From: a virus
IMG/VR virus record: IMGVR_UViG_3300026164_000002
Location: 1-22,628 of that record
DNA length: 22,628 nt
Direction: 5' to 3' (one strand)
The stretch's first letter is position 1, and the number at the start of each line of letters is the position of its first letter. The position numbers and the translations under genes are program-made. The notes under the pieces are model-generated. The model saw only the letters and a list, made by a program, of their open reading frames with translations, was not told the DNA's origin and did no database searches. Below, one piece after another: positions 2,089 through 22,628 of this stretch.

Positions 2089-2484
2089 ATGGCATTAGAA
2101 ATTAAGTCTTCGACTGGATGTGAAAATCTTTATGCTGAAACAGGTAATGTTTTAGAGTATTACACTACATTGATTAACTTGATAGGTTTAACAATGGATA
2201 AAGAGAATAGGTTAAGCGAAAAGCAAACCTATTTTTTAGCTCATTGCTGCAAGTTTAAGCAAGAAGGCGGTAATATAAGCAACATGGCGGCTTTATCAAG
2301 ATACTTTTTAAACAACGAGTATTTGAATGGTAGGCAACAGATAAGAAACTATAAAAATAAGATTGGGGTAGCGAAGTGGGCTAAGACAGGATACAACATA
2401 TTTGAAATTATTCCTAGACCTTTAGCCTCACCTCCTGGAGCTTTTTCTTTGAAAATAGGATATGGGGAGAAGGAAGAAGAGTAA
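2089..2484 (+). CDS. Conserved-looking phage protein, possible DNA-binding (131 aa)
   Basis: First gene of the rightward operon, started by an ATG preceded by GGAACAAC. The 131-residue product is soluble. Residues about 45-105 (from LSEKQTYFLAHCCKF through a Lys/Arg/Asn-rich stretch to KIGVAKWAKTG) have the helix-rich, basic feel of a helix-turn-helix domain. The C-terminus is acidic (GEKEEE) and its coding sequence overlaps the next gene by 23 bp. Position at the head of the packaging module would suit a regulator or a small-terminase-like DNA-recognition protein, but no signature proves either. Function unassigned. Confidence 0.72.
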   Translation: MALEIKSSTGCENLYAETGNVLEYYTTLINLIGLTMDKENRLSEKQTYFLAHCCKFKQEGGNISNMAALSRYFLNNEYLNGRQQIRNYKNKIGVAKWAKTGYNIFEIIPRPLASPPGAFSLKIGYGEKEEE

Positions 2485-2887
2485 AGAAGAGATAGAGGCG
2501 TTAAAAAGGCGCATAGCGACTACTAAGGGTTGGGTAAATGTTCCGATGGGTAAAATACTTAACCAAGTAGGAAAAGAAATGGGAATGGACCCTAAGCATG
2601 TTAAAGAGATATTTCAATTATCTTGGTATAACATAAAGGAGACTTTAAATGAGAATGAGTTCCCAAACATAAGCATAGAGCATTTTGGTCGGTTACTGCC
2701 TCGTATAACTAAAGTAGAGAAGTTAAAAGAGAAGTATTTAGATCAGTTAATGGCTTCAAGGAGGGCTAAAAGGAGAAACCCTCAACGGATAGAAACATAT
2801 AAAAAGAAGTACGAAGCGGCATTGGCTGCTTGTGATAGAATTAAGAAGGAAAAGAAGAGGAAACGAGAAATTCATAAAAAGAAATAA
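2462..2887 (+). CDS. HU/IHF-like DNA-binding protein with basic tail (141 aa)
   Basis: A strongly basic protein. Residues about 26-81 follow the layout of the HU/IHF family: an N-terminal two-helix unit (PMGKILNQVGKEMG, then a second helix HVKEIFQLSWYNIKETL), then a strand segment I-S-I-E-H-F-G-R-L-L-P-R resembling the HU 'I-x-G-F-G-x-F-x-x-R' block. The canonical DNA-gripping beta arm is not obvious; residues from about 100 on form a Lys/Arg-rich tail instead. HU/IHF homologues are known in crAss-like phages, where they may bend or condense DNA. It overlaps the preceding gene and shares its promoter. Assignment rests on pattern only; a small basic virion or packaging protein is the alternative. 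Confidence 0.6.
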   Translation: MGRRKKSKEEIEALKRRIATTKGWVNVPMGKILNQVGKEMGMDPKHVKEIFQLSWYNIKETLNENEFPNISIEHFGRLLPRITKVEKLKEKYLDQLMASRRAKRRNPQRIETYKKKYEAALAACDRIKKEKKRKREIHKKK

Positions 2888-2894
2888 CAACAAC

Positions 2895-3560
2895 ATGGGT
2901 ATAAATAAAGATACGGGATTGATTTATAATGATTCAGTAGAAGAAAAAAAAGTAAGTGATAATAATGGTTTGGCGGATGAAAAATTAGAGTTTTCATTAA
3001 CCCAAAAAGATTACAGGAACTTATTTACGTCTTTTGAGGATTTCATAAATCAGGATATCGAGGATTTGTGGGATAACTATAATATAGGGGGAAAGAACCT
3101 TATTGTACGAGTATTTACATTCAACCCTACTGATTTCCATGAAGACACTCCTGATATTGCTTTAGGTATGATTTCAAGTAAGGAGCTAAAGCTTTTGACG
3201 TTCCCAGTAGCGATTGTACTTAACGCAGGAAGGCAAGCTACTTACATTAATGATGAGGGGGAAGAAGTAAATTATAAGAAAGGGGATTTTGTTAAGTTAC
3301 AAGACCGTGATGCACGAATGATTAGTAATCCTGATTATGAAGCTTGGATTGATAATGGGATGTCTAATAGCAATGCAACTCAGATTGGTCAGGCTCCCCC
3401 TTCAAAGATTGCTGCTTTGCGCAGGAATTTTGCTAAGTACACAGTAATGGCAAACCCGTTTGACTTTTTTGTTGAGCGTAAAGACTTGTTCACTTTTAAT
3501 TTACCTTTGAATTATATTGATGGGTACATTAAGGATGTAAATAAGTTTTTAGATGTTTAG
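2895..3560 (+). CDS. Unknown protein, packaging operon (221 aa)
   Basis: The frame is open from a GTG at 2832, but that start would overlap the HU-like gene by 56 bp. The ATG at 2895 is preceded by AACAACAAC, the leader motif used elsewhere in this window, and is preferred. The product is acidic and soluble, with no membrane segment. Its first 35 residues look disordered. A strand-rich core follows (LIVRVFTFNP..., then LLTFPVAIVLNAGR, and YKKGDFVKLQDRDA, which has a small-beta-barrel look), and an aromatic C-terminal part (NPFDFFVERKDLFTFNLPL). The next gene starts 8 bp before its stop, so the two are coupled. No family recognised; a conserved phage protein of the head/packaging module is the best description. 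Confidence 0.8.
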   Translation: MGINKDTGLIYNDSVEEKKVSDNNGLADEKLEFSLTQKDYRNLFTSFEDFINQDIEDLWDNYNIGGKNLIVRVFTFNPTDFHEDTPDIALGMISSKELKLLTFPVAIVLNAGRQATYINDEGEEVNYKKGDFVKLQDRDARMISNPDYEAWIDNGMSNSNATQIGQAPPSKIAALRRNFAKYTVMANPFDFFVERKDLFTFNLPLNYIDGYIKDVNKFLDV

Positions 3561-3942
3561 TACAGCGTTATTGGTATTTTTAGGAGGTTATTCTATTTGT
3601 GTAGGGGCTGCTTATTTTGCGTCCCCCAGCGGAGTTCGATTTGCAGATGCGGCTAATCCTGTTAAATGGGTTCATTTTGTTGAGGGTGTGTTGATGAGAA
3701 GAGCATTAGAACCTCACATTATTGAGCAATTATTTATTCGGATAAACGACTTTGAATGTAGGGAGTGTGTAGCTGCGGGAAAATGTAAAGAGTGTGGATG
3801 TAAGATGCCTGAAAGAGCAATGTCTTTTAAAGAGTCCTGCTCTAAGGGAAATTGGGGTCCGATTATAACCGACTTAGAAGAATATAAAAAATTTAGGGAA
3901 GTTGTTCCTATAAAAATAGAAATTGAGTATGAAGGCGTTTAA
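3553..3942 (+). CDS. Membrane-anchored Cys-rich (zinc-ribbon-like) protein (129 aa)
   Basis: The N-terminus (residues 4-23, ALLVFLGGYSICVGAAYF) is a single hydrophobic segment, fitting a membrane anchor or signal anchor. Residues 69-83 carry C-x2-C-x5-C-x2-C-x-C, with another Cys at 96, in a C-R-E-C ... C-K-E-C-G-C context; this looks like a zinc ribbon or other metal site. The following SCSKGNWGPI segment looks conserved, and I recall similar small proteins beside terminase genes of Bacteroidota phages, without a known role. It overlaps the upstream gene by 8 bp and the downstream DUF1573-like gene by 14 bp, so the three are probably co-translated. A membrane protein in a packaging operon is unusual. 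Confidence 0.75.
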   Translation: MFSTALLVFLGGYSICVGAAYFASPSGVRFADAANPVKWVHFVEGVLMRRALEPHIIEQLFIRINDFECRECVAAGKCKECGCKMPERAMSFKESCSKGNWGPIITDLEEYKKFREVVPIKIEIEYEGV

Positions 3943-4721: not shown

Positions 4722-5228
4722 ATGGAATGGCAATTAGTAAAAGGCGATTCAAGGTTTCCGTTTTTTGAGCAAAACCCTGACTTAGCGTATTTTCCTTGTA
4801 TTAAGAATTTAATAAACGAAAAAGGAGAAGAGCAAGCGGGGAGGATTATGTGGGCTATACACATGACGGAAGATATCAATGGTGTCTTTTACGGATTGCA
4901 AGAAGAGGAAAAGCGTAGGTTAGTAGATGAGAGTTTCTTTGAAGGTAAAAAGAGATTTGAGTGGGATGAACCTATAATAGAAAAAGTTATTCGTAGGTAT
5001 CCTGATATAACTATGCCTCCTAAAAAAAGAAGATATAAGCGGCTTCAAGATTCTTTTGATGTGATGTTAAAGGATTTGGAAGCGGGCGAAGATAAAACAT
5101 TAGCTATTCAGAGGCTGCAAAAAGTACTAAGTACCGCAGAAGATGAATGGATAGAAGAAACAAATAAAATGGAGTCCTCCAAGGGGGACAAGCAAGAAAA
5201 TTCCTTTTGGAATAAACAGAAGAATTGA
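4722..5228 (+). CDS. Conserved protein directly upstream of large terminase (168 aa)
   Basis: A soluble, highly charged 168-residue protein. Its middle (GRIMWAIHMTED..., then EEEKRRLVDESFFEG and the aromatic FEWDEP block) resembles, from memory, a family of about 200-residue proteins encoded just before terminase in Bacteroidota and some large phages. The C-terminal half is helical and probably coiled (PPKKRRYKRLQDSFDVMLKDLE, then LAIQRLQKVLSTAEDEW). It ends in a 4-bp overlap with the terminase start. This position is where a small terminase or terminase partner would sit, but there is no diagnostic DNA-binding motif, so the role is left open. Confidence 0.78.
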   Translation: MEWQLVKGDSRFPFFEQNPDLAYFPCIKNLINEKGEEQAGRIMWAIHMTEDINGVFYGLQEEEKRRLVDESFFEGKKRFEWDEPIIEKVIRRYPDITMPPKKRRYKRLQDSFDVMLKDLEAGEDKTLAIQRLQKVLSTAEDEWIEETNKMESSKGDKQENSFWNKQKN

Positions 5229-7579
5229 ATTTAGAACCTGTAAAACTAATACCGTTTCGGCTTCATGATATTTCAGATTTCATGAACCAGGAGCATCCTG
5301 AACTTCATCCGAAAACACCTCAATTTGAGATTTATTGGAAAGAACAGTTCGATTATTGTATAAACGGTAAATGGGGACATGACTATGATTCTTTAAAAGA
5401 CGAGGGGGGATATAGATGGATGCCTAATACTTTGTATTTTTACATAAGCATGGGTGTTATTACCCAAGAGGGGGATTTTGGTACAGAAGTTGAAAAATCT
5501 CCTTTGTTAAGGGATGTAGAGTGGTTTATTTTTTATGGGCTCGCAGAGTGTGAAGGGTTTGCAGGTTTTTCGGAGGATAAAGAAAGAAGCTGTTATAGAC
5601 CTTTAGAAAAGATACAAAAAGGAATACCTTTAACTAATGCGGAGCGTATATACTTAAATAAATACAAAAAGTATTTAACTAAGCCTAATGGGGATTACAA
5701 GGAATATGTTTCGGCTAGAGAAATGTTATACTCTACTCATGAAAAACCTTTAGGTAAGCCTTTATGGTTAAATGAGTGTCAAGACTTTTTATTAGTTTCT
5801 ACAAGGGGGGTAGGTAAGAGTTTTTCTATTGCTCAGGGATTAGTTGGGCACGATTATAATACAAACGGGGCTAAAACGGTAGACGAGTTTTTACAAGGTA
5901 CTACTAAGTCTACTACAGTAGTAGGGTCAGGGGACTCTTCAAAATCTTCTGAGTTTTTATCTAAGTTTAAAACGTTACAAGAACATTTACGTACTAAGGT
6001 AGGAGCTTATCAAAAAGGGTTACAGGAGGAGCAAGGTATTTTTTGGAAACCTTCAACAGGTAGTTTAGCCCCTGGAACTGATAATCCATTTACTAATGAG
6101 GTTAAACTAAAAGGTAATGCAGGTACAAAGGGTCCTGGGTCTAAAGTTGTTCATGTTTCGTATCACGTAAACCCATCAGCGGGGGTTGGTTATCGTGCTC
6201 GTAAAATGGTTATTGAAGAGGTTGGGCTTACGCCTAGGTTTGAAAGAGTACATGCTGAGAACCAAGGGTCTTTAACGAGAGATACTCGGTTTGGGTTTTG
6301 TGCGTATATAGGAACAGGCGGGCAAGTAGAAAAAACAAAAGAAGTACAGGATGCTTTTGAAAACCCAAAGGCTTACAATATATTAGGGTACGATGACCAT
6401 TTTGGGAAAAGTGGAACTCAGATAGGGGCTTTTATACCTTCTTACTATAGAAAGAATATTTATAAAGACGAGAACGGTAATACTAATATAGAGGAAGCCT
6501 TCAATGATGAAATTACCGCAAGGGAGTCTAAGAAAAAAGATTCAGAGATTGCTTACGAAGGTTATTGTATTTCCTATCCTATCATACCGCAAGAGATGTT
6601 TTTGGCTACTGCGGACAATCCATTTCCAATAGCTACTATTGATGATAGACTTACTGAGTTAAATAGTGGGCTTTGGAAAAAGAAAGCTATTGTAGCTAGG
6701 ATAGATTATACAAATTCAGAAAAAACAAAAGCTACATACAAGCCGATAGATAGAGAGAACGTGCAACCTATCTATAAGTTAAGGCAGGAAAATACATTAC
6801 AAGGAAAAGAGCCTGTTGGGGCTACTGTTATTTATGAGCCTCCTGTTCCAGATGCATCTTCTTGGGATTCTTATACACCTTTATACATAGTAGCATATGA
6901 CCCTGTTTTAAAAGAGGATGGGGGGACATCTATGTGTGCGGTTACTGTTTTTAAATTAATGCGTCCTCGGGCGGCTGATGGCGAAGTGAGGTTTAACATA
7001 GTAGCTGAGTGGATAGGTCGGTATAATGATACTAATAAAAACCATGAAAAAGCATTTGAGTTAGCAGCTTTGTACCAATGTAAAATACTATCGGAAGACA
7101 ACATAAATAGTATTGTTAGATATTCAAGAAGTACAAACAGAGAGCACTTATTAGAAATGCGTCCTGATAACGCTTTAAGTAAAATAAAAGTAAAACAGAA
7201 AAGGTCTAATGTTTATGGTATTCAGATATTACCAGGGATGATTCCTAAATTAGAAAAAGCATTAGTAGATTTATTAGATGTTAATACTTTACAACCTGAC
7301 GAAAGAGAATATGTCGGCGAAGATGGAATAATAGAAAGGGAAAGACGTATGGTAGAGGAGTGTTTATCTATACGGTTTCTTGAAGAAATGAAATACTATA
7401 AAAGGGAAGGTAATTCGGATTACGTTTCTGCTATGTTTATGGTAGCCCTTTGGGTACAAGAGATAGAAATAAGACCAGTAGAAAGTTACGATGACCAAAG
7501 AAACAAAGATACAAAAGTTAAAGATGTATTGAGTTTCATACACAAACGTAATAGAAGTAAACCTATTTATGAAAAATAA
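5225..7579 (+). CDS. terL: Large terminase subunit (TerL), packaging ATPase/nuclease (784 aa)
   Basis: The motor that cuts concatemeric DNA and pumps it through the portal into the prohead. Walker A is T-R-G-V-G-K-S (residues 193-199). The Walker B segment is M-V-I-E-E-V-G with E331 E332, where D-E is more usual. The RNase H-like nuclease has D559 (YIVAYDPV), E624 (CKILSEDN) and D732 (SDYVSAMFM), in the expected order. At 784 aa it is long for TerL but fits crAss-like phages. The start is a TTG overlapping the previous stop (TTGA); the first in-frame ATG is codon 20, so a slightly shorter form is possible. The portal gene begins 11 bp before its stop. Function is confident; family placement less so. 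Confidence 0.93.
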   Translation: MNLEPVKLIPFRLHDISDFMNQEHPELHPKTPQFEIYWKEQFDYCINGKWGHDYDSLKDEGGYRWMPNTLYFYISMGVITQEGDFGTEVEKSPLLRDVEWFIFYGLAECEGFAGFSEDKERSCYRPLEKIQKGIPLTNAERIYLNKYKKYLTKPNGDYKEYVSAREMLYSTHEKPLGKPLWLNECQDFLLVSTRGVGKSFSIAQGLVGHDYNTNGAKTVDEFLQGTTKSTTVVGSGDSSKSSEFLSKFKTLQEHLRTKVGAYQKGLQEEQGIFWKPSTGSLAPGTDNPFTNEVKLKGNAGTKGPGSKVVHVSYHVNPSAGVGYRARKMVIEEVGLTPRFERVHAENQGSLTRDTRFGFCAYIGTGGQVEKTKEVQDAFENPKAYNILGYDDHFGKSGTQIGAFIPSYYRKNIYKDENGNTNIEEAFNDEITARESKKKDSEIAYEGYCISYPIIPQEMFLATADNPFPIATIDDRLTELNSGLWKKKAIVARIDYTNSEKTKATYKPIDRENVQPIYKLRQENTLQGKEPVGATVIYEPPVPDASSWDSYTPLYIVAYDPVLKEDGGTSMCAVTVFKLMRPRAADGEVRFNIVAEWIGRYNDTNKNHEKAFELAALYQCKILSEDNINSIVRYSRSTNREHLLEMRPDNALSKIKVKQKRSNVYGIQILPGMIPKLEKALVDLLDVNTLQPDEREYVGEDGIIERERRMVEECLSIRFLEEMKYYKREGNSDYVSAMFMVALWVQEIEIRPVESYDDQRNKDTKVKDVLSFIHKRNRSKPIYEK

Positions 7580-10088
7580 AGAAAACTGGTCTAAATTAAT
7601 AGATAAAGACGGGGTTTCATATTTAAACGATATGAACCCTCAGTTACGATTACTAATTAGTGAGAGTGAAAAGAGAAAAGGGGGGCAAGCGTTAGCGGAG
7701 GCGATGATTGATTACCATGATTCTTTATCTACAAAAACAGAAGAAGATTATGCTTATTACGATGAAAACGCAGAACTTCATAGGGGTTCTTGGTCTACTT
7801 TAGAGGAGCATCAAGATGATATTAGTTTTAAGTTAAATGGAAAAGATCAATCCTTAGGCGGCTTAAAGCTTAGGCATTTCCCTATCATAAATACGATTAG
7901 TATGCGTATTTTGGGGGAAATTGTACAACGTCCTTTAATAGCTGGGGTTAGAGATTACTCAGCTACATCAAGAAATTACAGGGACCGTTATAGAAATAAA
8001 TTAACTAAAGAGTTTTTATATCAAAAGTTAATAAAGCCTAAAGAAGATGCAATTAGGCAGCAGTTTTACCAAGGATTAGGTATAGAGGACCCAAGGCAGC
8101 TAAATAGTGAGCAAGGGCAACAAGTAGAGCAAGAAATACAAAAACAACTTCAAAACACAATACCTGATGATTTGCAGGAAACGATGGAGTTGCAGCAATC
8201 CCCTGAGGAAATTATATTTCAAAAGTTTTTGACTCATATAATAAAAGAGCAGAACATTGAGAATAAATTAATTCAGGGTGCTGAGAATGCTATTACTTTT
8301 GCGGAGGAGGCATACCGATTAAACGTAATAAACGGTAAGCCCAGAGTAGAAGTATTAAATCCTAAGTATGTGTGTTGGGATGGTTCTGAGCATGTAGAGA
8401 AAATACAAGATGGTACTTTTGCTAAGTATGAGCAGTATTTAACGCCGCAAGACATTATACAAAAGTATGGTTCTCATTTAATGACAAAAGACTTAAAAGA
8501 GTTGGAGTCGTTGTTTACTGACTATGGAGGAAGCTCGGGTCAAAATGCTAATGAGTGGAAAGAGTTAGAGTTTACAGAAGCTTTAGCCAATAACCCTGAG
8601 TTACAAGATTATATAGGTCAGGTTAATACAAGAGAGGGTCAGGAAAAATTAAATTTAATCTACGCTATGGTTTCGGGGCGTAGAAGAAACCCTAATAATC
8701 GGTCAGGGACTTGGGGAATACGAGAAAGTTACGTTTGTTGGAAATGGCAACGATGGATGAAGTTGGTAACAAGAGAGGTGCAAGGGAAGCGAGTAGAGCT
8801 ATGGAAGGCCGACCACTACAAAAAAGATATAACTAAGGGCGATTTAAAAGTAGAGCGGCATTTAGTTCCTCAGGTATGGCATGGTGTAGTTTTGGGAGAA
8901 ATAGGGAGTTCTATAAAAATAAAAGTAGAGCCCGTACCTTGGCAGTATAATAGTTTAAAAGACCCATTTGATGTAAAGCTTCCTATATTTGGTAGGACGT
9001 ACAATACACAAATGAATAACTCCAAGAAAGTTTCTTTCATTGATTTGGGTAAGCCTTATCAGTACGAGTATAATTCTTTGCGGAGAGATTGGGAAAAATA
9101 TAGACGTACTAATTTAGGTAAAGTGATATTAGGTACTGTAAACATGCTCCCTGATAACATGGACTTTCAGGACTTTTATACCATGCTGGATAATTTGAGT
9201 TTTGGTTTGGTCAATGATAAGTATGAAGGTCAAGACCCGAGATACGACATGAATGCTTTCCGTAATTTTGATTTAAGCAAGACTTCGGATATGGCATCCG
9301 TTCTTAAAGATATGGAATATGTTAAGAATGAGATGTATCAAGCTATGTACTATAATGTATCTAAATTAGGTCAGCAGGGTCAATACACTACGGCTACGAC
9401 TGCTCAAATGAATGTACAGGCGGCTGATGCACAATTAGCTAAGTTCCATAATGAGCGGCGAGAATTAAAAAGAGACGTATTAGAATACACATTAAACCTA
9501 ACCTTAGCTGCTTACGCTGATGATGAGGATATGAAGGCTAAAGTATTAGATGATATGTCTATTGCTTATATGTCTACTAATTACGAGTTTTTAAGTACCA
9601 GGGAGTACAATATCTTTGTTGTTGACGATTACAGGGAGACACAGCGGTTAGAGTTCGTTAGACAGCAAATGCAAGCGTTTATACAAAACGGAGCTAATGT
9701 TAAGGAAGTTATTGCATTAGCTAAGGCAGAGTCTTTTGCTGAGTTGGAAGAGATTGCAGAGAAGGTTTCGAGACGGCAATCTAAACAAGTACAACAGGCG
9801 CAGCAAGCGGAAATAGAAGCGTTGCAGCAAAAAACTAAACAAGAGATGGATATGAAGAAATACGTTGAAGAAATGAAGGCACTACGACAGGAGCGTTCCG
9901 ATGAGGTTAGTTTGGCTATGGCTGAGTTAAATGCTATGCAGATGGCTAATGCGAATGACATTGACGATAACACAGTTCCTGATTCATTACAACGTAGTAT
10001 GTTTGAAATGAAAGTTAAAGAACGTATGAAAGATAAGGAATTAGCATCTAAAGAACGTATTGCAATGGCAAAAAACAGTGAATTTTAG
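7569..10088 (+). CDS. Portal protein (839 aa)
   Basis: The portal is the dodecameric ring at one head vertex through which TerL packages DNA. Evidence is mainly order (immediately after TerL, overlapping by 11 bp), size and general sequence. The N-terminal half is mixed helix/strand, with a segment (HFPIINTISMRILGEIVQRPL) typical of the portal wing region. A block near residues 465-500 (DVKLPIFGRTYN) resembles crAss-like portals, as does the following SFIDLGKPYQYEYNSLRR. From about residue 735 the chain is Gln/Glu/Lys-rich helix (QQAQQAEIEALQQKTKQ), probably the coiled barrel or a tail inside the head. It has only two cysteines, unlike the later virion genes. Over 800 aa is large for portals generally but normal for crAss-like phages. 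Confidence 0.87.
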   Translation: MKNKENWSKLIDKDGVSYLNDMNPQLRLLISESEKRKGGQALAEAMIDYHDSLSTKTEEDYAYYDENAELHRGSWSTLEEHQDDISFKLNGKDQSLGGLKLRHFPIINTISMRILGEIVQRPLIAGVRDYSATSRNYRDRYRNKLTKEFLYQKLIKPKEDAIRQQFYQGLGIEDPRQLNSEQGQQVEQEIQKQLQNTIPDDLQETMELQQSPEEIIFQKFLTHIIKEQNIENKLIQGAENAITFAEEAYRLNVINGKPRVEVLNPKYVCWDGSEHVEKIQDGTFAKYEQYLTPQDIIQKYGSHLMTKDLKELESLFTDYGGSSGQNANEWKELEFTEALANNPELQDYIGQVNTREGQEKLNLIYAMVSGRRRNPNNRSGTWGIRESYVCWKWQRWMKLVTREVQGKRVELWKADHYKKDITKGDLKVERHLVPQVWHGVVLGEIGSSIKIKVEPVPWQYNSLKDPFDVKLPIFGRTYNTQMNNSKKVSFIDLGKPYQYEYNSLRRDWEKYRRTNLGKVILGTVNMLPDNMDFQDFYTMLDNLSFGLVNDKYEGQDPRYDMNAFRNFDLSKTSDMASVLKDMEYVKNEMYQAMYYNVSKLGQQGQYTTATTAQMNVQAADAQLAKFHNERRELKRDVLEYTLNLTLAAYADDEDMKAKVLDDMSIAYMSTNYEFLSTREYNIFVVDDYRETQRLEFVRQQMQAFIQNGANVKEVIALAKAESFAELEEIAEKVSRRQSKQVQQAQQAEIEALQQKTKQEMDMKKYVEEMKALRQERSDEVSLAMAELNAMQMANANDIDDNTVPDSLQRSMFEMKVKERMKDKELASKERIAMAKNSEF

Positions 10089-11465: not shown

Positions 11466-13037
11466 ATGGCAACTAGACCTTTAGAAAGTAAGTTTGAAAT
11501 TTACACGCAGAATGTGGATAAACATGCTGCGGTGTATAAGAAAATGGATTTAGCGGCTACCTTTCAGGTATTCCCGCAAATGCTAGATTATGAGATGTTG
11601 GAGCCTACCAGACGAAAGACTGCGGCTTATTCCAAGTCTCACATCATCGGGGAAGATGGGAGTTTAATGCGTGTATTTGAGGACCAAGCGGCTGTACAGT
11701 CTGTTAGTTCTAAGTACATCCACTGGCGACTTTACACTGAGAATGCGGATGTCCGTTCTTTTTTCAGTAAAAATTACGAACCCGATGGGGCTCAGTCAGG
11801 TATTGGCGATACTATTTTTGACATCGGGTTGGATACTGACAATTTAGGGCCTAACGATGTTTTTGTATTTGAGGATTTCCGCGATCATCCAGTTTTGGTT
11901 GTAAGTGACCCTAATCCTGATGGAGATACATTCCGATATGAGTGTCAAATCTGGTCAGCGGATATTGATTACATGGAATTGGATATGATTGGAGTAGGTA
12001 CTCGAATTGTACAGATTGGTTCCATTATACCTGAGGCTACTACACGAAGAGGTAATGTAACCTTATCAGGGGGTAATTCGTTTGTAGACTTTGAGGTTCC
12101 AATGACTCGTATGGGTTGGTCCATGAAAGTTACAGATGATGCTTGGAAAGCGGCTAAAGACTTCTTGCTTACAAGCAAAGGAGATTCTGAGGTAGATAAT
12201 GCACTTACTGAAGGTTTAGGTTCACCAAAAGATATTTTGCACTCGGAGCTTGATAACAAGTTCTTCCGAGCAACAAACCGTCAAATTGACATGTGGCTTA
12301 CATATGGTAAGTCAGCAGACCGATTTGCATCTAGATTCTTAGATGGTTTGAACCAACGTGAAATTATGGCAGGTCCAGGACTTTATGAGTTCTTAGATTC
12401 TGCATGGAAAGAAGAGTATCCTGTTGAGAATGGCAGTTTAGATATTTTCCGTAATTTCTTGAAACGTATTTGGTTAAACAAAGTAGACGTACAAGAGCGT
12501 GTTGTACACGTACACACAGGGTCTGCTGGATTAGAACTTATCCAAAAATGGTGTCGTGCTGAGGATATTGCTCAAGTAGAGCAGCCACCTGAGCTTCACT
12601 ATGGTCGACAAGATGGATTTGATGCTAATAAGAATGGAGTTGTTATTGGCAAGAAACAGTATGTAGGGTTTGAGATACAACCTTTCGGTACTGTATATTT
12701 CCACTATTTACCATTCCTTGATAATACTGCGGTAGACACGAGAACGTATAAGGGTTACCCTTATTCTTCTTACCAATTTATTATCTTTGATTTTGGTTAT
12801 GGAGATATCCGAGACGGCAAAAACGTTAAAATCTTAAAAGATTCAGGGTATGATAACTTTGGTTATGGTATTGGTACATGGGGACCTTTCGGACCAGCGT
12901 TGAATGACCCTAAATCAAATAATTTTAGAACTACGTTAGGTAATGAGAATGCGTATGAGTACATACGAGAGACTTCAATGGGCTTTTTGATTGAGGATAT
13001 CTCTTCTGTATTATTCATGCAACCTGCATTATCGTAA
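11466..13037 (+). CDS. Major capsid protein candidate (523 aa)
   Basis: A 523-residue, nearly cysteine-free (two Cys) globular protein that follows the portal and scaffold genes; this order and size point to the HK97-fold shell protein. It begins MATRPLESKFEIYTQNVDKH. Features that fit are an extended N-terminal part, a long helix-rich middle (WKAAKDFLLTSKG; LDGLNQREIMAGPGLYEF), and a strand-rich, aromatic C-terminal part (YVGFEIQPFGTVYFHYLPF). It has no signal peptide or membrane segment. The ATG lies in an AT-rich leader (TTTATTATT-ATG) with no Shine-Dalgarno. Position gives most of the confidence; I did not recognise a diagnostic motif. Codon choice seems to include more C-ending codons (TTC, ATC, CGT-rich stretches) than neighbours, which would suit high expression, but I did not count them. 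Confidence 0.78.
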   Translation: MATRPLESKFEIYTQNVDKHAAVYKKMDLAATFQVFPQMLDYEMLEPTRRKTAAYSKSHIIGEDGSLMRVFEDQAAVQSVSSKYIHWRLYTENADVRSFFSKNYEPDGAQSGIGDTIFDIGLDTDNLGPNDVFVFEDFRDHPVLVVSDPNPDGDTFRYECQIWSADIDYMELDMIGVGTRIVQIGSIIPEATTRRGNVTLSGGNSFVDFEVPMTRMGWSMKVTDDAWKAAKDFLLTSKGDSEVDNALTEGLGSPKDILHSELDNKFFRATNRQIDMWLTYGKSADRFASRFLDGLNQREIMAGPGLYEFLDSAWKEEYPVENGSLDIFRNFLKRIWLNKVDVQERVVHVHTGSAGLELIQKWCRAEDIAQVEQPPELHYGRQDGFDANKNGVVIGKKQYVGFEIQPFGTVYFHYLPFLDNTAVDTRTYKGYPYSSYQFIIFDFGYGDIRDGKNVKILKDSGYDNFGYGIGTWGPFGPALNDPKSNNFRTTLGNENAYEYIRETSMGFLIEDISSVLFMQPALS

Positions 13038-14748: not shown

Positions 14749-16566
14749 ATGAAGAGTTTTAATAGAGTAAATGTATTAGCTACCAAAGGAAACTTAGCAG
14801 TAAAAACTGCGGGGGAAACCGTATATACTAAGTATGGGGTTAATGCTAAGGAAGGGGAAGTTCTTGTTTTTAACCCTAAAACAAATAAAACATTAGGAGT
14901 AGGTGATTTGGCTACGGCTTCACATATATCGGTTGCGGTAGGTGTTAAGGAGCGTGGTAAAATGGCATTGAAGCATGTAAGCGGCAGTCGTTTTAATTTA
15001 AAGAATAGTAAGTTTACTGTAACTGCTACCACTCCATCTTGTGGGTGTCCGCAGGTTATTGATATCTTCCCTAGTTGTTTAGAGTGTGGAGAAACATATT
15101 CTATCAATGTACGGTTAGATGACTATTTGGTTCGTTCTCGATTTGACTTCAATGAGCAGTTAAATTATGTGTTTACTGAGCGTATCAAATGTACGGACTG
15201 TGATGATTGTACAGAGGAAGCTGATGCGGTTGCATGGTTGTCTGCGATTCGAGATAAAATCAATGATAAGTCACGGACTGCTTTGGAAGACCAAGTGTTA
15301 CCACGTGTAGGGTTTAATGCGGAGCAGTATCGCCCATTTAAAGCCTCTTTGCTTTATGACAACACGTTTACGTATACGTTACCTTTAGGTGATGATGATT
15401 GTGAGCAATGCAGTAATTTTGCTGCGGTTGCAGGAGCGTTGGTAGACGGTAAAACTTTCCAGTTTGTAAATACTGTAGACCCTTCGGATAACACTCAGAC
15501 TTTAGTAGAACAGAAGCAAGCGTTAGAAGATCAGTTGAACGAAGCATTGGACGGCACAGGTGGTTCTGCTTATATTACTACTTCTGATTTGGCATGTTGT
15601 CCTTTTAAGATTGAGATTAATACATGTGATTCGTCTTTTGAGCTTCATGACGAAAACGGAGCAGAGATTACTCCTGATGGGGGAGCAGCTACAAATCCAT
15701 TGACGGCATATACTAAAGAGGGTGCTTATAACTCTTGTTCTAACAATGATACTTCTATTACACCTACGGTAGGGCTCCGTATTTTTGTAGACCCTATTGA
15801 TTGGGCTGTAGAAGGAGATGGTTTGATTGATACTAATGAGGTAATTCCTAATATCTTTATTCGTAGAGCGGATGTAGAGCAATTAGGATATGGTTGGGAT
15901 AAAGCAAGTTTGCATGTACGAGAAGTATGTAAGCCTCAGAATATCCACGGCCAAGGTTTGTATTGGTTGGATAAGGAGCGTAAAATGAATCACACAGGGG
16001 GTTCAGGAAACAACCACCGTTATTCCAGTCGAAACATTGGACGTAACAATATTCCTGACAAATATTCTAAAGTACGTAATTTAATTACGAACTCAAAAGA
16101 GACTTATTGTGTGTACAACTGGCTTCAAGACTTTGAAGGCCGAGCGCAAGGAAGTAACATACGCTCAGTAGCACAGGATAACTTAACATGGTTATTGGTT
16201 CCTCAGAAGGATACTACTACTCAAACGAGTTTAGAGTTGTTTGGTAATAAGTTTAATCAGTTGGGTTATGCTATGGAGTTTGCGACATGTTTAGGTGTTG
16301 TTGATGATGTAGTGGAAGGAGCCACAGAAGCGGCTGAAGAAACTGTTGATGTATCAACTAATGACACTGTTGACCTTAGCGAATGTGAAGCCGTAACTTA
16401 TGAAGTTACTGGATTTACAAATGCAGAAACTGTAAGCATTTCGGATGCTGGGTCTTTAACCTTTACTCCAAGCGCAGCGGGAGAGTTTACGGTTGGATAC
16501 CAAGTGTTTTGTGATGGTATTTTAGTTGGCGGTGGTACTGTTTCAGGAACAGCGTCAGCAGCGTAG
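14749..16566 (+). CDS. Cys-rich virion protein with C-terminal Ig-like domain (605 aa)
   Basis: A 605-residue protein with about 18 cysteines, many paired: C98-G-C100, then C-L-E-C, C-T-D-C-D-D-C, C-E-Q-C and a C-C pair. The N-terminal part (MKSFNRVNVLATKGNLAVK) and the long mixed middle look like a tail or head-surface structural protein. From about residue 525 a low-complexity linker (EGATEAAEETVDVS) leads to a strand-rich domain ending GGGTVSGTASAA, which reads as an Ig-like add-on of the kind found on virion surface proteins. The gene is the last before a strong terminator, so it is the final member of the capsid transcription block and probably abundant. Tail tube/sheath, head fibre or collar are all possible. 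Confidence 0.75.
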   Translation: MKSFNRVNVLATKGNLAVKTAGETVYTKYGVNAKEGEVLVFNPKTNKTLGVGDLATASHISVAVGVKERGKMALKHVSGSRFNLKNSKFTVTATTPSCGCPQVIDIFPSCLECGETYSINVRLDDYLVRSRFDFNEQLNYVFTERIKCTDCDDCTEEADAVAWLSAIRDKINDKSRTALEDQVLPRVGFNAEQYRPFKASLLYDNTFTYTLPLGDDDCEQCSNFAAVAGALVDGKTFQFVNTVDPSDNTQTLVEQKQALEDQLNEALDGTGGSAYITTSDLACCPFKIEINTCDSSFELHDENGAEITPDGGAATNPLTAYTKEGAYNSCSNNDTSITPTVGLRIFVDPIDWAVEGDGLIDTNEVIPNIFIRRADVEQLGYGWDKASLHVREVCKPQNIHGQGLYWLDKERKMNHTGGSGNNHRYSSRNIGRNNIPDKYSKVRNLITNSKETYCVYNWLQDFEGRAQGSNIRSVAQDNLTWLLVPQKDTTTQTSLELFGNKFNQLGYAMEFATCLGVVDDVVEGATEAAEETVDVSTNDTVDLSECEAVTYEVTGFTNAETVSISDAGSLTFTPSAAGEFTVGYQVFCDGILVGGGTVSGTASAA

Positions 16567-16873: not shown

Positions 16874-17365
16874 ATGCAATGTGGATGTATCAAAAACATA
16901 TACAATGCTTATGTAAGCAATAATGGCTGTAAGGAGTTAATATACGAAGACAGCAGTTTATGGATGGAAGAAACTGGGTATTCTATACCTGAATCTTATG
17001 ATGTTACAATAACTACTCCTAATGGAGCGGTTAAGACATTAGACTTAAAGGTTGGTTGCAGGAATAAAATTACCTCAGCCGACCTTTTTACGTCTAACGG
17101 GCTTTGTTTAGAAGATGGTATTTATTGTTTTGAAGTAGAGAGTTGCGGAGTTAAGTATAAGATTAACAAAGCCTTTTTATGTAATACAGAATGTTCTTTA
17201 TCTAAATTTATAGCGTTAAATGATAATTTTGAAAAAGTTGTTTACTACAATAGTTTAATAGAAGCGGTTAAGTCTAATGCTGAGTTAGGTAATGTAATAG
17301 AAGCTAACAAGATTTTAGATTATCTGAATCGTCAATTTGAAAATTTGAATTGTGAAAATTGTTAA
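16874..17365 (+). CDS. Cys-rich phage protein (163 aa)
   Basis: A 163-residue protein with 11 cysteines, beginning MQCGC and ending NLNCENC. The core (SYDVTITTPNGAVKTLDL, then LCLEDGIYCFEVESCGVKYK) is a series of beta strands with a 'Asp-Gly-Ile-Tyr-Cys-Phe ... Ser-Cys-Gly' block, a pattern I associate with small tail-module proteins of Bacteroidota phages. The C-terminal 45 residues are helical (SLIEAVKSNAELGNVIEANK). There is no signal peptide. It overlaps the next gene by 14 bp. Probable structural or assembly protein of the tail apparatus; the cysteines may bind metal or form disulphides after cell lysis. Confidence 0.75.
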   Translation: MQCGCIKNIYNAYVSNNGCKELIYEDSSLWMEETGYSIPESYDVTITTPNGAVKTLDLKVGCRNKITSADLFTSNGLCLEDGIYCFEVESCGVKYKINKAFLCNTECSLSKFIALNDNFEKVVYYNSLIEAVKSNAELGNVIEANKILDYLNRQFENLNCENC

Positions 17366-18170
17366 TAGAGACGGTTGTAGAAATCATACAGATACAGGAT
17401 GTTATAAGCTTAGACCTTCTGAACTTAGGGATGTAGTAATTGACATTTCTTATTCGATAGGGAACTTTGGTAAGGAATGGATACAAGAATTAGAATGGGG
17501 TTACTCTAAGGAGACGAAGAAACCTAAAACTTATTATGTCCTAAGTCTTTACAAAGACATCATAATAAAGCACATGAATGCCTTACGATTAGAGCATCGG
17601 CCTTGTTTAAGTGACTGTGAGATACAAAGAGTTATAGAAAAGGCAAGGATAGAAACAGGGAAAATAAAGTGTGGGGAAAATGTAGATTTACAAGAAGTTG
17701 ATAGAACGGGTATGGATGCAAGTGAATCGTGTGTGCCTTATGAACTTTGGGAAAAAGCAAAATACATTAAATTACCTAAGATAACGCCCACTGTAGAATT
17801 AAAAGAGTGTCTTAGGTTTGCATATGAGGTTGAAGTAATTTCGAGCAAAGAGAAAGCTTGTGAAATTATTTATGACCTATCGGTTATCCAAAGAGATGTT
17901 TGCAATATAGAATATACAGTTGATGTAGATTTAAACAAATGTCAATTAGAATACCAAACTATTGTAGAAAACAACCAATGTGAAATTAAATTAGATAACT
18001 ACATAAAGATGAGGGAGTGTGGTTTGTCTTATGAAGTGATAAGTGATTTGGTTGAGTGTTCTATTACTCCTATATATGAAGGGGAGTCGGGTAACATTTT
18101 ATTAAAAACACCACAGGGCAACACATATAATTATAACGAACTTAATTCTTTAGGAAAGATTAATAAATAA
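17352..18170 (+). CDS. Cys-repeat protein with 13-residue period (272 aa)
   Basis: Starts with GTG inside the end of the previous gene (14-bp overlap); the next in-frame ATG is codon 74, so GTG is preferred. The N-terminal half is mixed and helical (GKEWIQELEWGYSKETKK; CEIQRVIEKARIETG). From residue 153 the cysteines become periodic: C153, C170, C184, C197, C210, C223, C236. The last four intervals are exactly 13 residues, each unit reading roughly C-x-[IL]-x-[YL]-x, as in CNIEYTVDVDLNK, CQLEYQTIVENNQ and CGLSYEVISDLVE. This suggests a small beta-solenoid or ladder with a cysteine stack. There are 13 cysteines in all. Located just before the giant gene; a fibre-associated or baseplate-like role is inferred. 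Confidence 0.75.
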   Translation: MKIVNRDGCRNHTDTGCYKLRPSELRDVVIDISYSIGNFGKEWIQELEWGYSKETKKPKTYYVLSLYKDIIIKHMNALRLEHRPCLSDCEIQRVIEKARIETGKIKCGENVDLQEVDRTGMDASESCVPYELWEKAKYIKLPKITPTVELKECLRFAYEVEVISSKEKACEIIYDLSVIQRDVCNIEYTVDVDLNKCQLEYQTIVENNQCEIKLDNYIKMRECGLSYEVISDLVECSITPIYEGESGNILLKTPQGNTYNYNELNSLGKINK

Positions 18171-18173
18171 GAA

Positions 18174-21100
18174 ATGGCAGCTTTAGAATATACTATACAC
18201 CTTAACGATATATCTGCGGTAGGCGCAACTTGTAATGATTTCAACATAGAGTGGGAAGACGACTTATCATGTGGTAACATTACTTGTATTATAAATGATA
18301 ACGTATTAAAAGTACAAATTCCTGAATCGTGTAAGAATGAGTGTGTAGAGGCACTTATAACATGTGCGGAGCCTTGTACTAATTGCGAACCTTTACGACT
18401 TACTATTTGCCCGTGTGAGACAGATGCAGATTGTGACGATTGTTCTTCTTGTATAGATAACATGTGCGTATCTATATGTAAGGACGATGAGTTCTGTTCA
18501 GAGGGGCAATGTAAGGAATGTGATGATGAGAACCCATGCCCTGACGGTCGGGTTTGTGTAGGCGGAGAATGTGTTTGTCCTCCTGGGCTCGTTGAGAACG
18601 ATAGGGGAGAATGCGTACCTTGTTTACCTGAAACTACACCAAACTGTTACATTTGTACTCCTGATGGTATTGTGCCTAAAGAATGTCCTGATGGTCAGGT
18701 GTGTAATCCTAACACAGGCGATTGTGTAGATTGTATAGGCTCTGGTGATTGCGGGGAAAATGAAAAATGCGAAGGTGGTGACTGTGTATGTGAAGAAGGT
18801 TATCGTAGAGACCCTGTAACAGGGGAATGTATCCCATTGCCTGATTGTGATGAAGATGCGGATTGTCCTCCTTGCTTTGTTTGTAATGAGTTTGGGGATT
18901 GTGTACCTAAAGAATGTCCTGACGGTCAAGTTTGTGTTGATGGGGAATGTAAAACTCCTTGCGAAGATGGTACAGACTGCCCTGATGGGTTTGGTTGTAA
19001 TCCTGATACGGGTTTTTGTGAGGAATGTGCAGACCAAGATTGCTCCACTCCTGATTGTGATAATTTGTTAGGGTGTAATTGCAACAGTTCGGGAGATTGT
19101 GTAGATTCTGATAATTGTGGTAACCAAACATGTAATAATGTGTTTGACTGTCCTGAGGGATGTGTTTGTTATAAAGGGGAATGTGTAGATTGTAGTAATT
19201 TTGCATGTGACGGATGTACTATACCAGGGTGTGAGTGTATAAACGGGGATGATTGTGTATCTGACCCTGACTATACATGTGAAGATGAGGTTCGTGTGTA
19301 TAAAAAAGATGCGGAGTGTGATTTAATCGGGGAAGCTACATTAAAAGATAATTGTGCTTGTGACCCTATTACATTAACATGGAAAGCTATTAGTACAGGG
19401 ACTGAGGAAGATAATCGAGTTCAGGTTAGTTTTGAATTTAATGCACGAAAAGGAAAAGCTTCTAATTACAACTCTGCTGTACAACTACCTACATTAGATA
19501 ACACTTCTAATGCGAATATTGCGGATAATGATGTTCCTGAATCAGGGGCGGTTACTTTAGTTCAAGAAATAACAGTAGTTCGTATTGACGAGAATGGTAA
19601 TACAATTCCAAATACCCAGGCAGTTGAAGTTATGTTTGATGAAACATTAGACTTTTCTGATTCGGCTAGTCAAACAATAAACTCACTTTGGGTTTATAAG
19701 CGAGGGGAGGAAATTGTTTTAAATTCCGAGGACCACCGAATTATTGGGGTAAGAGTAAAAGCAGTTCAAAATGATGACTTTAACTTTGAGAACCGAAGTG
19801 GTTGTGTATATGAGAGTTCTAACACAATAGGGTCTATTTCTGTATCTTCCACTCGATATTCATCTTTAGTATCAGGCGACTTATCTATATTCAATTCTTT
19901 TGTAAGTTTGTTTAGTGATAATGCAAGAAACCCTTTATTTAAGTGGTTTAGAAAAAGCCCTAACGCTGCTTCTTATAATAATTTGACTGATGTATTTAGA
20001 AAAGTGTACAAATCTGACATAGGCGGAGGTGTATACAGAGATACTTTATTTGGGCCTGACGAAATTCCTGCGTTAAATAATACTGATTTAGAACCTTTTG
20101 AAGGTGAATTGTGGTCAGGTTACAGTTATGCTTTGGAAGTAGATTGTGCTTGTGGGGATAATTATGATAACTTCGGTAAAGTTGCTTTTTGTCAGCCTGA
20201 AAATTTAGAGCGCACGCTTAACTCATGTAATACGACTATACAGTTAGGGTCGTTTACAGTATGTGATGTTAATGAGGATGTTACTCAGTTTAGTAATGTT
20301 CCTGGTAAAGCGCAAGTCTTTTTTGATTTGTACTTAAACGGTCAAGTGTTTGGCACGTATAAGCATGATGAGGGGACTAATCAAATTTTAAATGTTGATG
20401 ATGCTAATGAAAGTTTGTTTGATGAACATTCTTTAGTAAACAGTGAAGAAATCACTTCGGCAAAATTAGTTCAACGCACATCAGAAACTGAATTGTGTGT
20501 ACAGGAAATAGATATTCCTGCTTTAGCAGATAGAGAAGTTACTATTTATGATATTAAGTGTAATGAAGGGGATAATTATAGAGTAGAAATAGAGGCAGAC
20601 CAAACCCCTTCGGATATAGATAGAATTGTAGATTGGGGGAATGTTGTAAACGGTATATTTTCTAAAGCCTTCCCTAAAGGGAGCCCAGCCTCTTTTGAGG
20701 TTATATTTGACGATGGGTGTTCTAAGGCAGTTACTTTAAACCCAAGTTGTTGTGATTCAAGAAATATTATATCTACAGGAATACCAGCAGTATCGGAGGG
20801 GAGCCCTATTCCTATGGGTTTTGAAGCCGTTAATTTAGCATCTCCTTTGACTTATGTCGTATATCCTCCTACATTACCTTCCTTTAACGGAACGGCCCCT
20901 AGTCAAACTAATTTTAATATCACAATACCTGCTAATAGGGTAGAGAAAGGAGATTACAGAGTAGTGTTTACAGATGGTACTCCTGACTGTAATAATATTG
21001 AGGTTATTGTAAATGTAGATTTCTTAGCTCAAAATGAGCCTGAGGTTATAACAAATACAGGGGAATTTAGTTTTTGCGAGGGGGGTTCGGTTGAAGTGTT

Positions 21101-22628
21101 TGTAAACATGGAGTCTGAGGCTATTGGGGGAACACTAAAATATACACGAACCGATTTAAGTTCGGCGGGCAGTCCAACCACTCAAGGAACAGTGGCAATA
21201 GACAGTGGCCAAGTATTGATTGAAGAAGTTACTAAAGAAACAGCTTTCCAATTCACATCTTTAGAAAAGAATGGACAAGAGGTATTCTTTAATGTACCTG
21301 TAACAATAGAAGAAAAAGCTAAACCTACCGTATCTTCTTTTACGGTGGAAGAATCTTCTATTTGTTTGACGGATGATGTAGTTATAAACATTGAAGGTAC
21401 TCCAAACAGTACTGTATCGCTTAATCAAGGTATAGGGGATGTTATTTTAAACGCTTCGGGAGAAGCTACGGTAACACATACTCCTGAAACTACGGGTACG
21501 ATTCAGTATTCTGTGGTTGGGTTGAGTTCCGATAGTTGTCCTAGAGAAAACGTATCTAGTCCAAATGCAGTAGTTACTGTTTCAGAGGGCCCAACGATTG
21601 ATGCTTCGGCTGAATGTGAAAACTCAAATCCTAATTCTGATAAAACATTAACATGGGAAGTAGGGGACACAGGAGGTACTTTTGCTGCATTTGAAACAGA
21701 TAATGAAACTAACACATTAAGTGTGAGTGGAGGAAATAATGGAGATGGTACTTCTACTTATACAGTAACAGTACCTGCATCTTCTGAGATAGAGGTAGTT
21801 ACAGGGGAGTACACAAATGCGAGTGGTTGTAAAGTTGTAGCTTTACAAGCAGTTCCTACTAATTGTGCTTGTCCTAACTTAGATGTAGATGGTACGGCAA
21901 CTTCGGTTTGCGAAGGCAGCGGAGATAATATCGTATTTACAATTAACGAGGTTGTTGTGGAAGGAGTTACTTATGGAACAGGCGATATTTCGGTAAGTTG
22001 GAGAGATTTGTCGGGAACAGAAGTATCTACAAGTAATCCTTACAATTATGACAGCACAGGAGAAGCTGCGGGAAATATTCAATTCTTATATGAAGTGACG
22101 ATAGAAACAGGAGCTCATGACGGATGTTCTACTAACGGTTCTGTAACAGGGAGTGTATTATCTCCTCAGCAAGTAGATATTGCAGTAAGTGGAACTACGG
22201 GTAGTTTTGATGGAACATTGTGTGACGGAGGGGCTATGGAGTTTATTTCTACTATTGAAAGTCCTACAGATACGTACAGTTGGAAGATTGATGGAGCTGA
22301 GGTAGGAACAAGTAGGACTTATACGTTTAATGAGGCTGCACAAGCTTCTAACTATGTACTTAGTGTAGAGGTAGAGGATGAAAATGGATGTACGTCAGAA
22401 GATGACCAAGAAATATTTGTTACGTCTTGTGGGTGTGCAGTTCAGTATGTAGATATTCCAGGGGCTCCAACTTTAGACTTTATTGAGTTTACAGATGGGC
22501 AGCGTATTAGTTTAAGTGACTTACAAGTAGGGGTGTTTCCTGAATTAGCAGCGGGGGATACTAAAAATGATGCAATAGTTACTCAAATAGAAAACTCGTT
22601 ATCTGCTAATAATGATTCAGGCAGTGTT
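18174..22628 (+). CDS. Giant Cys-rich, Ig-domain virion/adhesin-like protein (partial, at least 1485 aa)
   Basis: The frame is open from the ATG at 18174 to the window end; I read every codon to check for stops. Residues 1-395 hold about 69 cysteines in C-x-D-x-D-C / C-P-D-G-x-x-C / G-x-C-x-C patterns, resembling disulphide-rich EGF- or Dickkopf-like modules. A strand-rich region with a helical insert follows (about 575-640, e.g. NPLFKWFRKSPN). From about 950 come Ig-like domains opened by [ST]-x-C-x-x-[GD] at C968, C1064, C1246 and C1350 (C1148 is a less exact match), spaced about 85-105 residues apart, as in Bacteroidota surface adhesins. C-[AG]-C motifs at 394, 658, 1231 and 1419 fall near domain edges. 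There is no signal peptide, as expected for a virion part. Likely a tail fibre or host-contact protein. Confidence 0.85.
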   Translation, partial: MAALEYTIHLNDISAVGATCNDFNIEWEDDLSCGNITCIINDNVLKVQIPESCKNECVEALITCAEPCTNCEPLRLTICPCETDADCDDCSSCIDNMCVSICKDDEFCSEGQCKECDDENPCPDGRVCVGGECVCPPGLVENDRGECVPCLPETTPNCYICTPDGIVPKECPDGQVCNPNTGDCVDCIGSGDCGENEKCEGGDCVCEEGYRRDPVTGECIPLPDCDEDADCPPCFVCNEFGDCVPKECPDGQVCVDGECKTPCEDGTDCPDGFGCNPDTGFCEECADQDCSTPDCDNLLGCNCNSSGDCVDSDNCGNQTCNNVFDCPEGCVCYKGECVDCSNFACDGCTIPGCECINGDDCVSDPDYTCEDEVRVYKKDAECDLIGEATLKDNCACDPITLTWKAISTGTEEDNRVQVSFEFNARKGKASNYNSAVQLPTLDNTSNANIADNDVPESGAVTLVQEITVVRIDENGNTIPNTQAVEVMFDETLDFSDSASQTINSLWVYKRGEEIVLNSEDHRIIGVRVKAVQNDDFNFENRSGCVYESSNTIGSISVSSTRYSSLVSGDLSIFNSFVSLFSDNARNPLFKWFRKSPNAASYNNLTDVFRKVYKSDIGGGVYRDTLFGPDEIPALNNTDLEPFEGELWSGYSYALEVDCACGDNYDNFGKVAFCQPENLERTLNSCNTTIQLGSFTVCDVNEDVTQFSNVPGKAQVFFDLYLNGQVFGTYKHDEGTNQILNVDDANESLFDEHSLVNSEEITSAKLVQRTSETELCVQEIDIPALADREVTIYDIKCNEGDNYRVEIEADQTPSDIDRIVDWGNVVNGIFSKAFPKGSPASFEVIFDDGCSKAVTLNPSCCDSRNIISTGIPAVSEGSPIPMGFEAVNLASPLTYVVYPPTLPSFNGTAPSQTNFNITIPANRVEKGDYRVVFTDGTPDCNNIEVIVNVDFLAQNEPEVITNTGEFSFCEGGSVEVFVNMESEAIGGTLKYTRTDLSSAGSPTTQGTVAIDSGQVLIEEVTKETAFQFTSLEKNGQEVFFNVPVTIEEKAKPTVSSFTVEESSICLTDDVVINIEGTPNSTVSLNQGIGDVILNASGEATVTHTPETTGTIQYSVVGLSSDSCPRENVSSPNAVVTVSEGPTIDASAECENSNPNSDKTLTWEVGDTGGTFAAFETDNETNTLSVSGGNNGDGTSTYTVTVPASSEIEVVTGEYTNASGCKVVALQAVPTNCACPNLDVDGTATSVCEGSGDNIVFTINEVVVEGVTYGTGDISVSWRDLSGTEVSTSNPYNYDSTGEAAGNIQFLYEVTIETGAHDGCSTNGSVTGSVLSPQQVDIAVSGTTGSFDGTLCDGGAMEFISTIESPTDTYSWKIDGAEVGTSRTYTFNEAAQASNYVLSVEVEDENGCTSEDDQEIFVTSCGCAVQYVDIPGAPTLDFIEFTDGQRISLSDLQVGVFPELAAGDTKNDAIVTQIENSLSANNDSGSV
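18675..18935 (+). repeat. Internal repeat in the Cys-rich region (30-bp unit, two copies)
   Basis: Copies at 18675-18704 and 18906-18935 both encode PKECPDGQVC and differ only at third codon positions (GAT/GAC, CAG/CAA, GTG/GTT). The spacing is 231 bp, or 77 residues. Conserved protein with silent differences points to an old, selected module duplication rather than a recent copy. Confidence 0.7.

Follow-up and report, generated by a model that had tools for sequence, protein, structure and literature searches.

A cysteine-module region at the front of a giant protein, a probable tail-collar appendage, of a crAss-like phage

The DNA analysed here (the window) is a 22,628-base IMG/VR virus record, and the contig is that of a crAss-like phage. 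The major capsid protein (MCP) scores well above the Pfam cut-off of 27 for its crassvirus family, and the gene order from the large terminase (TerL) through the portal protein and MCP to the auxiliary capsid protein (AUX) is collinear with that of Flavobacterium phage Fpv3 (Table 1). Among cultured phages, Cellulophaga phage phi14:2 has the closest TerL. Genes for proteins of 314, 240, 605, 80, 163 and 272 aa lie 3' of the MCP gene, in that order, and are followed by a giant open reading frame (ORF). Upstream of the structural genes, a 374-aa ORF lies on the opposite strand (809-1933, -) and has no Pfam match. A 129-aa protein encoded at positions 3553-3942 has a hydrophobic N-terminus and the cluster CRECVAAGKCKECGC; no family scored above cut-off for it. 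Another contig, L003 (IMGVR_UViG_3300026157_000038), encodes a capsid protein 100% identical to that of the window and stops before the giant gene.

Table 1. Features of the structural gene run and of the giant ORF; residue numbers are those of the giant protein, and cysteine columns are those shared with the related contig L002
Feature	Position	Strand	Evidence
Large terminase (TerL)	5225..7579	+	phrog_6681 2.3e-61; 31% to phi14:2
Portal protein	7569..10088	+	phrog_6547 3.5e-57
Crassvirus-type major capsid protein	11466..13037	+	PF23898 77.5 bits
605-aa auxiliary capsid protein (AUX) homologue, 18/18 Cys	14749..16566	+	phrog_15060 1.7e-6; hhalign to Fpv3 gp17, E 1.3e-6
163-aa protein, 11 Cys (8/10 columns shared), candidate tail-hub (THA) equivalent	16874..17365	+	Position as Fpv3 gp18 and phi14:2 gp098
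272-aa protein, 13 Cys (11/13 columns shared), possible hub component	17352..18170	+	Role suggested by position
Giant ORF, probable tail-collar appendage/fibre	18174..22628	+	Relative at L002:9995-12994
N-terminal domain, residues 1-80, 9 Cys	18174..18413	+	Beta strands in low-confidence model
Cysteine-module region, residues 81-396, 60 Cys	18414..19361	+	All Cys conserved in L002
Module CDDENPCPDGRVCVGGEC, residues 116-133	18519..18572	+	Other-virus module profile 19.1 bits
Module CIGSGDCGENEKCEGGDC, residues 187-204	18732..18785	+	Other-virus module profile 19.2 bits
Module, residues 225-243	18846..18902	+	Other-virus module profile 13.5 bits
Module CVPKECPDGQVCVDGEC, residues 243-259	18900..18950	+	Other-virus module profile 23.5 bits
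Module CEDGTDCPDGFGCNPDTGFC, residues 263-282	18960..19019	+	Other-virus module profile 16.1 bits
Giant protein body with few Cys; Ig/PKD-like at least towards its visible end	19362..22628	+	
PKD_3 (PKD-like) match, residues 1365-1400	22266..22373	+	27.8 bits (cut-off 26.3) for the terminal piece scanned alone; 25.1 for the whole protein

The giant ORF begins with an ATG at 18174 and runs off the 3' end of the contig, with 1485 aa present. An earlier note, made from the sequence alone, had counted about 69 cysteines in the first 395 residues, which is right to within one: there are 68 in residues 1-395, 69 in residues 1-396 and one in the next 250. Counted per 50 residues, the cysteines number 3, 11, 10, 8, 9, 9, 12 and 7, then 0 and 0. 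The stretch that the note drew as far as position 19390 is real and ends slightly earlier, at residue 396 (nt 19361). Other genes of the window encode proteins with 0-6.7% cysteine, with MCP and portal at 0.2-0.4%. As the note had also claimed, the N-terminus carries no signal peptide; nor does it carry a transmembrane segment, the best 19-residue hydropathy within the first 60 residues being only 0.83. The first 80 residues are probably a domain of their own and a candidate for docking. Behind them, the internal repeats of residues 81-396 match one another by BLAST, and many have the form C-x4-5-C-x5-C-x-G-x-C. No relative of the long body that follows was detected among cultured phages by tblastn.

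One independent relative of the cysteine region was found, on contig IMGVR_UViG_3300038660_000054 (L002/L005; L002 hereafter). Over the first 396 residues the two proteins are 65% identical; all 69 cysteines are kept, against 58% identity for the other residues, and the chance of this at background identity is 0.578^69 = 4e-17. Beyond residue 396, cysteines are again kept in full (13/13) and other residues are 47% identical, which brings the total to 82/82 over 1000 residues. With dN at 0.27 and dS at about 2, this must be a real, constrained coding region. A sequencing or frame artefact is rejected by these rates and by the 69 cysteines kept in L002, and the cysteine-rich front described in the earlier note is thus upheld. 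The same comparison was made for the neighbouring proteins: cysteine columns are wholly or largely retained in the AUX homologue and in the 163-aa and 272-aa proteins (Table 1), as opposed to 0/4 in the portal, 1/3 in the MCP and 0/3 in the 314-aa protein. Cysteine conservation follows protein type, and conserved cysteines are therefore found mainly in proteins expected on the outside of the particle or on its tail. Scans of viral contigs with the MCP, cysteine region, 163-aa protein, AUX and body as queries, single and aligned, returned the same few contigs only. By tblastn, the cysteine region and the 163-aa, 272-aa and AUX proteins had no matches among cultured phages, and no match was found in plasmids.

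Low-complexity chance was rejected for the cysteine region by an analysis of spacing. Within the modules, C-x5-C occurs 21 times against 11.1 expected (sd 2.7), CC is absent (11.1 expected), CxxxC is depleted (3 vs 11) and CxxC stands at chance level (11 vs 11.2). CxxC is the usual signature of zinc-finger and rubredoxin sites. Because the spacing is regular, CxxC is not enriched and residues 1-396 contain one histidine, the pattern favours disulphide-paired modules rather than metal clusters. Were the cysteines instead to bind metal, as zinc sites, Fe-S clusters or a metallothionein-like sink, they would do so in both cytoplasm and virion. In favour of such a role, the protein lacks a signal peptide and is made in the cytoplasm, 12 CxxC pairs lie in residues 1-396, and that region is strongly acidic (90 Asp/Glu vs 18 Lys/Arg). 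However, the acidity could serve calcium instead of thiolate metals and the modules resemble disulphide modules of secreted type; given also the spacing counts and the single histidine, we regard metal binding as quite improbable. The earlier note had offered disulphides formed after lysis, metal binding or an unusual maturation route; the first is the best supported, and spacing and the near-absence of histidine argue against the second. Disulphides have been described in phage particles. In the collar of crAss001, disulphides tie gp38 to gp39 and these two to ring proteins (PMC10172136), and in Agrobacterium phage Milano a disulphide network staples the virion, including links from fibre to baseplate (PMC10811340). 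Virions from the bacterial cytoplasm can therefore carry disulphides; going from these cases to 69 cysteines in a single region is an extrapolation by analogy on our part.

No curated domain family passes its cut-off within the cysteine region. The EB module comes nearest (PF01683; residues 80-150, 7.9e-5, 23.1 bits, gathering cut-off 24.3). EGF_Teneurin reaches 17.9 bits (gathering cut-off 24.3), DUF7107 (PF23416) gives 14.8 and 14.0 bits (gathering cut-off 24.6), and Dickkopf_N (PF04706) is not listed at E values up to 10. EB, DUF7107 and Dickkopf_N are families of mostly secreted eukaryotic proteins. The earlier note had seen EGF/Dickkopf-type patterns; modules of extracellular type are supported by the sub-threshold EB match, and the particular assignments to EGF and Dickkopf_N fall short of the cut-offs. 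A 25-residue match in the PDB, with an insect metalloproteinase inhibitor (E 0.003), was set aside as a short cysteine-pattern match. Structure prediction, which the note had proposed, gave a weak AlphaFold model of the region (mean pLDDT 61.6) in which the first ~80 residues look beta-rich, and a Foldseek search of this model against the PDB returned nothing below 0.001. The top two Foldseek matches among viral models, of 1166 aa and 1306 aa, have lengths that fit a protein of the ANMV-1 virus and half of gp084 of cyanophage P-SS2. With TM-scores of 0.13-0.18 they carry little weight and represent local or compositional similarity.

Modules of this kind were found on other viruses by running a DNA pattern for CPDGQVC over viral contigs, which returned L012, L013, L018 and L015. 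The L012 protein (854 aa, 111 Cys) passes the DUF7107 cut-off with 57.9 bits and by our reading adjoins fibre-like and capsid-region genes, and the 1127-aa protein of L013 also passes it, with 30.9 bits. The protein on L018 (2384-5392, -) is a T4-like baseplate hub of the gp5 type (phrog_1922, 1.8e-289) with DUF7107 (5.9e-5) and Dickkopf-like matches; it also has a Calx-beta domain. L015, a T4-like contig, encodes two adjacent cysteine-rich proteins (3-2204, 68 Cys; 2211-3020, 27 Cys) upstream of the terminase gene. Used as a query, L012 matches five phage records; P-SS2 gp084, the baseplate hub of Synechococcus phage S-SCSM2R and a protein of the ANMV-1 virus are matched. ANMV-1 is an archaeal virus, and its 1166-aa protein (L026:3747-7247) has 166 evenly spread cysteines. 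Cellular matches to the modules are proteins of Myxococcota, of secreted type, and of Deltaproteobacteria. Nearest in sequence to the window region are the Myxococcota proteins and the modules of other viruses.

A profile was built from 36 modules of P-SS2, L012, L013, L018 and ANMV-1, with the window excluded. It scores 157.1 bits on the window region, compared to 40.9 (sd 8.9, maximum 73.5) for shuffles with the cysteines held fixed, none of which reached the real score (0/500). For L002 the score is 133.6 bits and the shuffle maximum 83.4 (0/500). Scores this far above cysteine-fixed shuffles mean that the likeness exceeds cysteine spacing. Units of 18 residues are too short to decide whether it stems from shared ancestry or from convergence towards a short motif.

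P-SS2 gp084 (L025:9706-17544) is 2613 aa long and contains 282 cysteines; tblastn from the window region did not find it. In the 2009 proteome study, mass spectrometry of purified virions identified 43 peptides of ORF 084, which was entered as a structural protein of unknown function, and the main text does not mention cysteine (PMC2784084). A protein with many such modules therefore reaches the phage particle, the detection being at the protein level. No description of gp084 as cysteine-rich was found in the open papers searched. An open-access search for cysteine-rich, Dickkopf or EGF-like phage proteins gave nothing relevant, and published work may exist. In a search of 50,697 phage records, residues 1-1900 of gp084 matched no records but its own, and this kind of module appears to be rare on phage proteins. 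The earlier note had called such a module at the front of a probable fibre striking, a judgement that softens given a 282-cysteine protein found in virions in 2009. Cysteine-rich phage modules have an unremarked precedent in P-SS2, and what is new is their place at the front of a crAss-like appendage.

The likely position of the giant protein in the particle was considered from its gene neighbourhood. The AUX homologue of the window matches Fpv3 gp17, which we take from its position to be the AUX protein. At 605 aa it compares with 411 aa in Fpv3 and 333 aa in crAss001, and it has a weak Ig-like Big_9 match (E 0.015) near its C-terminus. In Fpv3, gp17 is followed by gp18 (13 Cys) and gp19, which has all of its 6 cysteines in the first 26 residues; in the gp099-097 run of phi14:2, gp098 has 6 cysteines and the next gene, gp097, encodes a tail protein that contains an Mtd_N domain. 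The 163-aa, 272-aa and giant genes of the window fill the same slot after AUX. The order in crAss001 is AUX gp36, an inserted endonuclease gene, tail-hub gp38 and gp39. The 163-aa protein has no detectable similarity to crAss001 gp38 (by hhalign), Fpv3 gp18 or phi14:2 gp098, and its model (pLDDT 36) is too poor for a fold search. From gene order, the 163-aa and 272-aa proteins are candidate hub components and the giant protein is a probable fibre. The phage structural locus proposed in the earlier note is supported by these genes, and its term "probable fibre" draws on synteny.

The giant protein could alternatively be a fibre of the head (capsid) or an adhesin that decorates the head, with the same cysteine stalk mounted on the capsid. 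Its gene follows the auxiliary capsid cluster, a body of PKD-like type would be appropriate for a surface adhesin, and two head fibres are known in crAss001 (PMC10172136). However, crAss001 has its head fibre genes, gp21 and gp29, between those for portal and MCP, and both are short; the position after AUX and a small cysteine-containing protein is taken by a tail protein in phi14:2 and, in Fpv3, by a protein with a cysteine-rich N-terminus. We consider a position on the head unlikely.

On balance we lean towards the giant protein being a tail-collar appendage of a crAss-like phage with a rigid cysteine stalk that is oxidised after lysis. Most likely a tail-collar fibre, it would be docked to the hub by its first 80 residues. 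Residues 81-396 would make up the stalk, as small beta-hairpin modules in tandem related to the EB/DUF7107/Dickkopf-type class, and the remainder would be a long body with Ig/PKD-like domains and a tip beyond the end of the contig. Synthesised in reduced form in the cytoplasm, the chain would assemble onto the tail together with the cysteine-containing proteins encoded next to it; once lysis exposes it to oxic water, its cysteines could pair into disulphides and give a stiff, protease-resistant stalk. As read from sequence, the module most likely hardens with disulphides after the virus leaves the cell, because every cysteine is kept in the relative and such modules occur on virion or probable virion proteins of unrelated ocean phages. 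A role outside the virion, with the protein exported or released at lysis to act at the surface of its host or on cells nearby, would fit the secreted appearance of the cellular module proteins, among them a Myxococcota relative with what we read as a lipoprotein-like N-terminal segment. The giant protein, however, lacks a signal peptide and sits within the structural gene run, and virions of P-SS2 contain gp084, whose modules are of the same kind; this role is very improbable.

The usual view is that modules so dense in cysteine require a secretory route that is oxidising and supplied with chaperones. It is possible, and we put it forward tentatively, that unrelated lineages (a crAss-like phage, P-SS2, T4-like cyanophages in their baseplate hubs and possibly ANMV-1) have repeatedly equipped their surface appendages with secreted-type disulphide-ladder modules that are synthesised in the reducing cytoplasm and do not fold until the host lyses, an unremarked oxidise-on-release maturation. 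If phages do produce such modules in the cytoplasm and leave folding until after lysis, this would be a distinct late step of virion maturation that bears on how stable particles are in oxic water and on the production of disulphide-rich proteins in bacteria. P-SS2 gp084, an unknown structural protein in 2009, gains a likely class, and how phages fold disulphide-rich modules without secretion becomes a question that can be addressed in a cultured virus.

Among known systems, the likeness to crAss001 gp38, gp39 and gp22 is one of gene neighbourhood. The disulphide-stabilised collar with a docked fibre N-terminus is that of crAss001, where the fibre gp22 docks at the collar via residues 1-26 (PMC10172136). 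In contrast, the hub candidate of the window has no sequence match there and gp22 has no cysteine-rich front, so the stalk is not standard equipment of crassviruses. Fpv3 gp17-gp18-gp19 present the same succession of an AUX homologue, a 13-cysteine protein and a protein with N-terminal cysteines; gp19, however, has 663 aa and a short cysteine leader only, whereas the giant protein of the window has no match among cultured phages. Milano differs in that its cysteines are sparse (2.1% in structural proteins) and not arranged in cysteine-rich modules. The likeness to EB, DUF7107 and Dickkopf_N lies in the C-x4-5-C-x5-C-x-G-x-C type of the modules and stays below every curated cut-off. P-SS2 gp084 belongs to an unrelated Prochlorococcus siphovirus and has cysteines over most of its length, but it shares with the window very cysteine-rich tandem modules of the same kind, encoded in a structural module.
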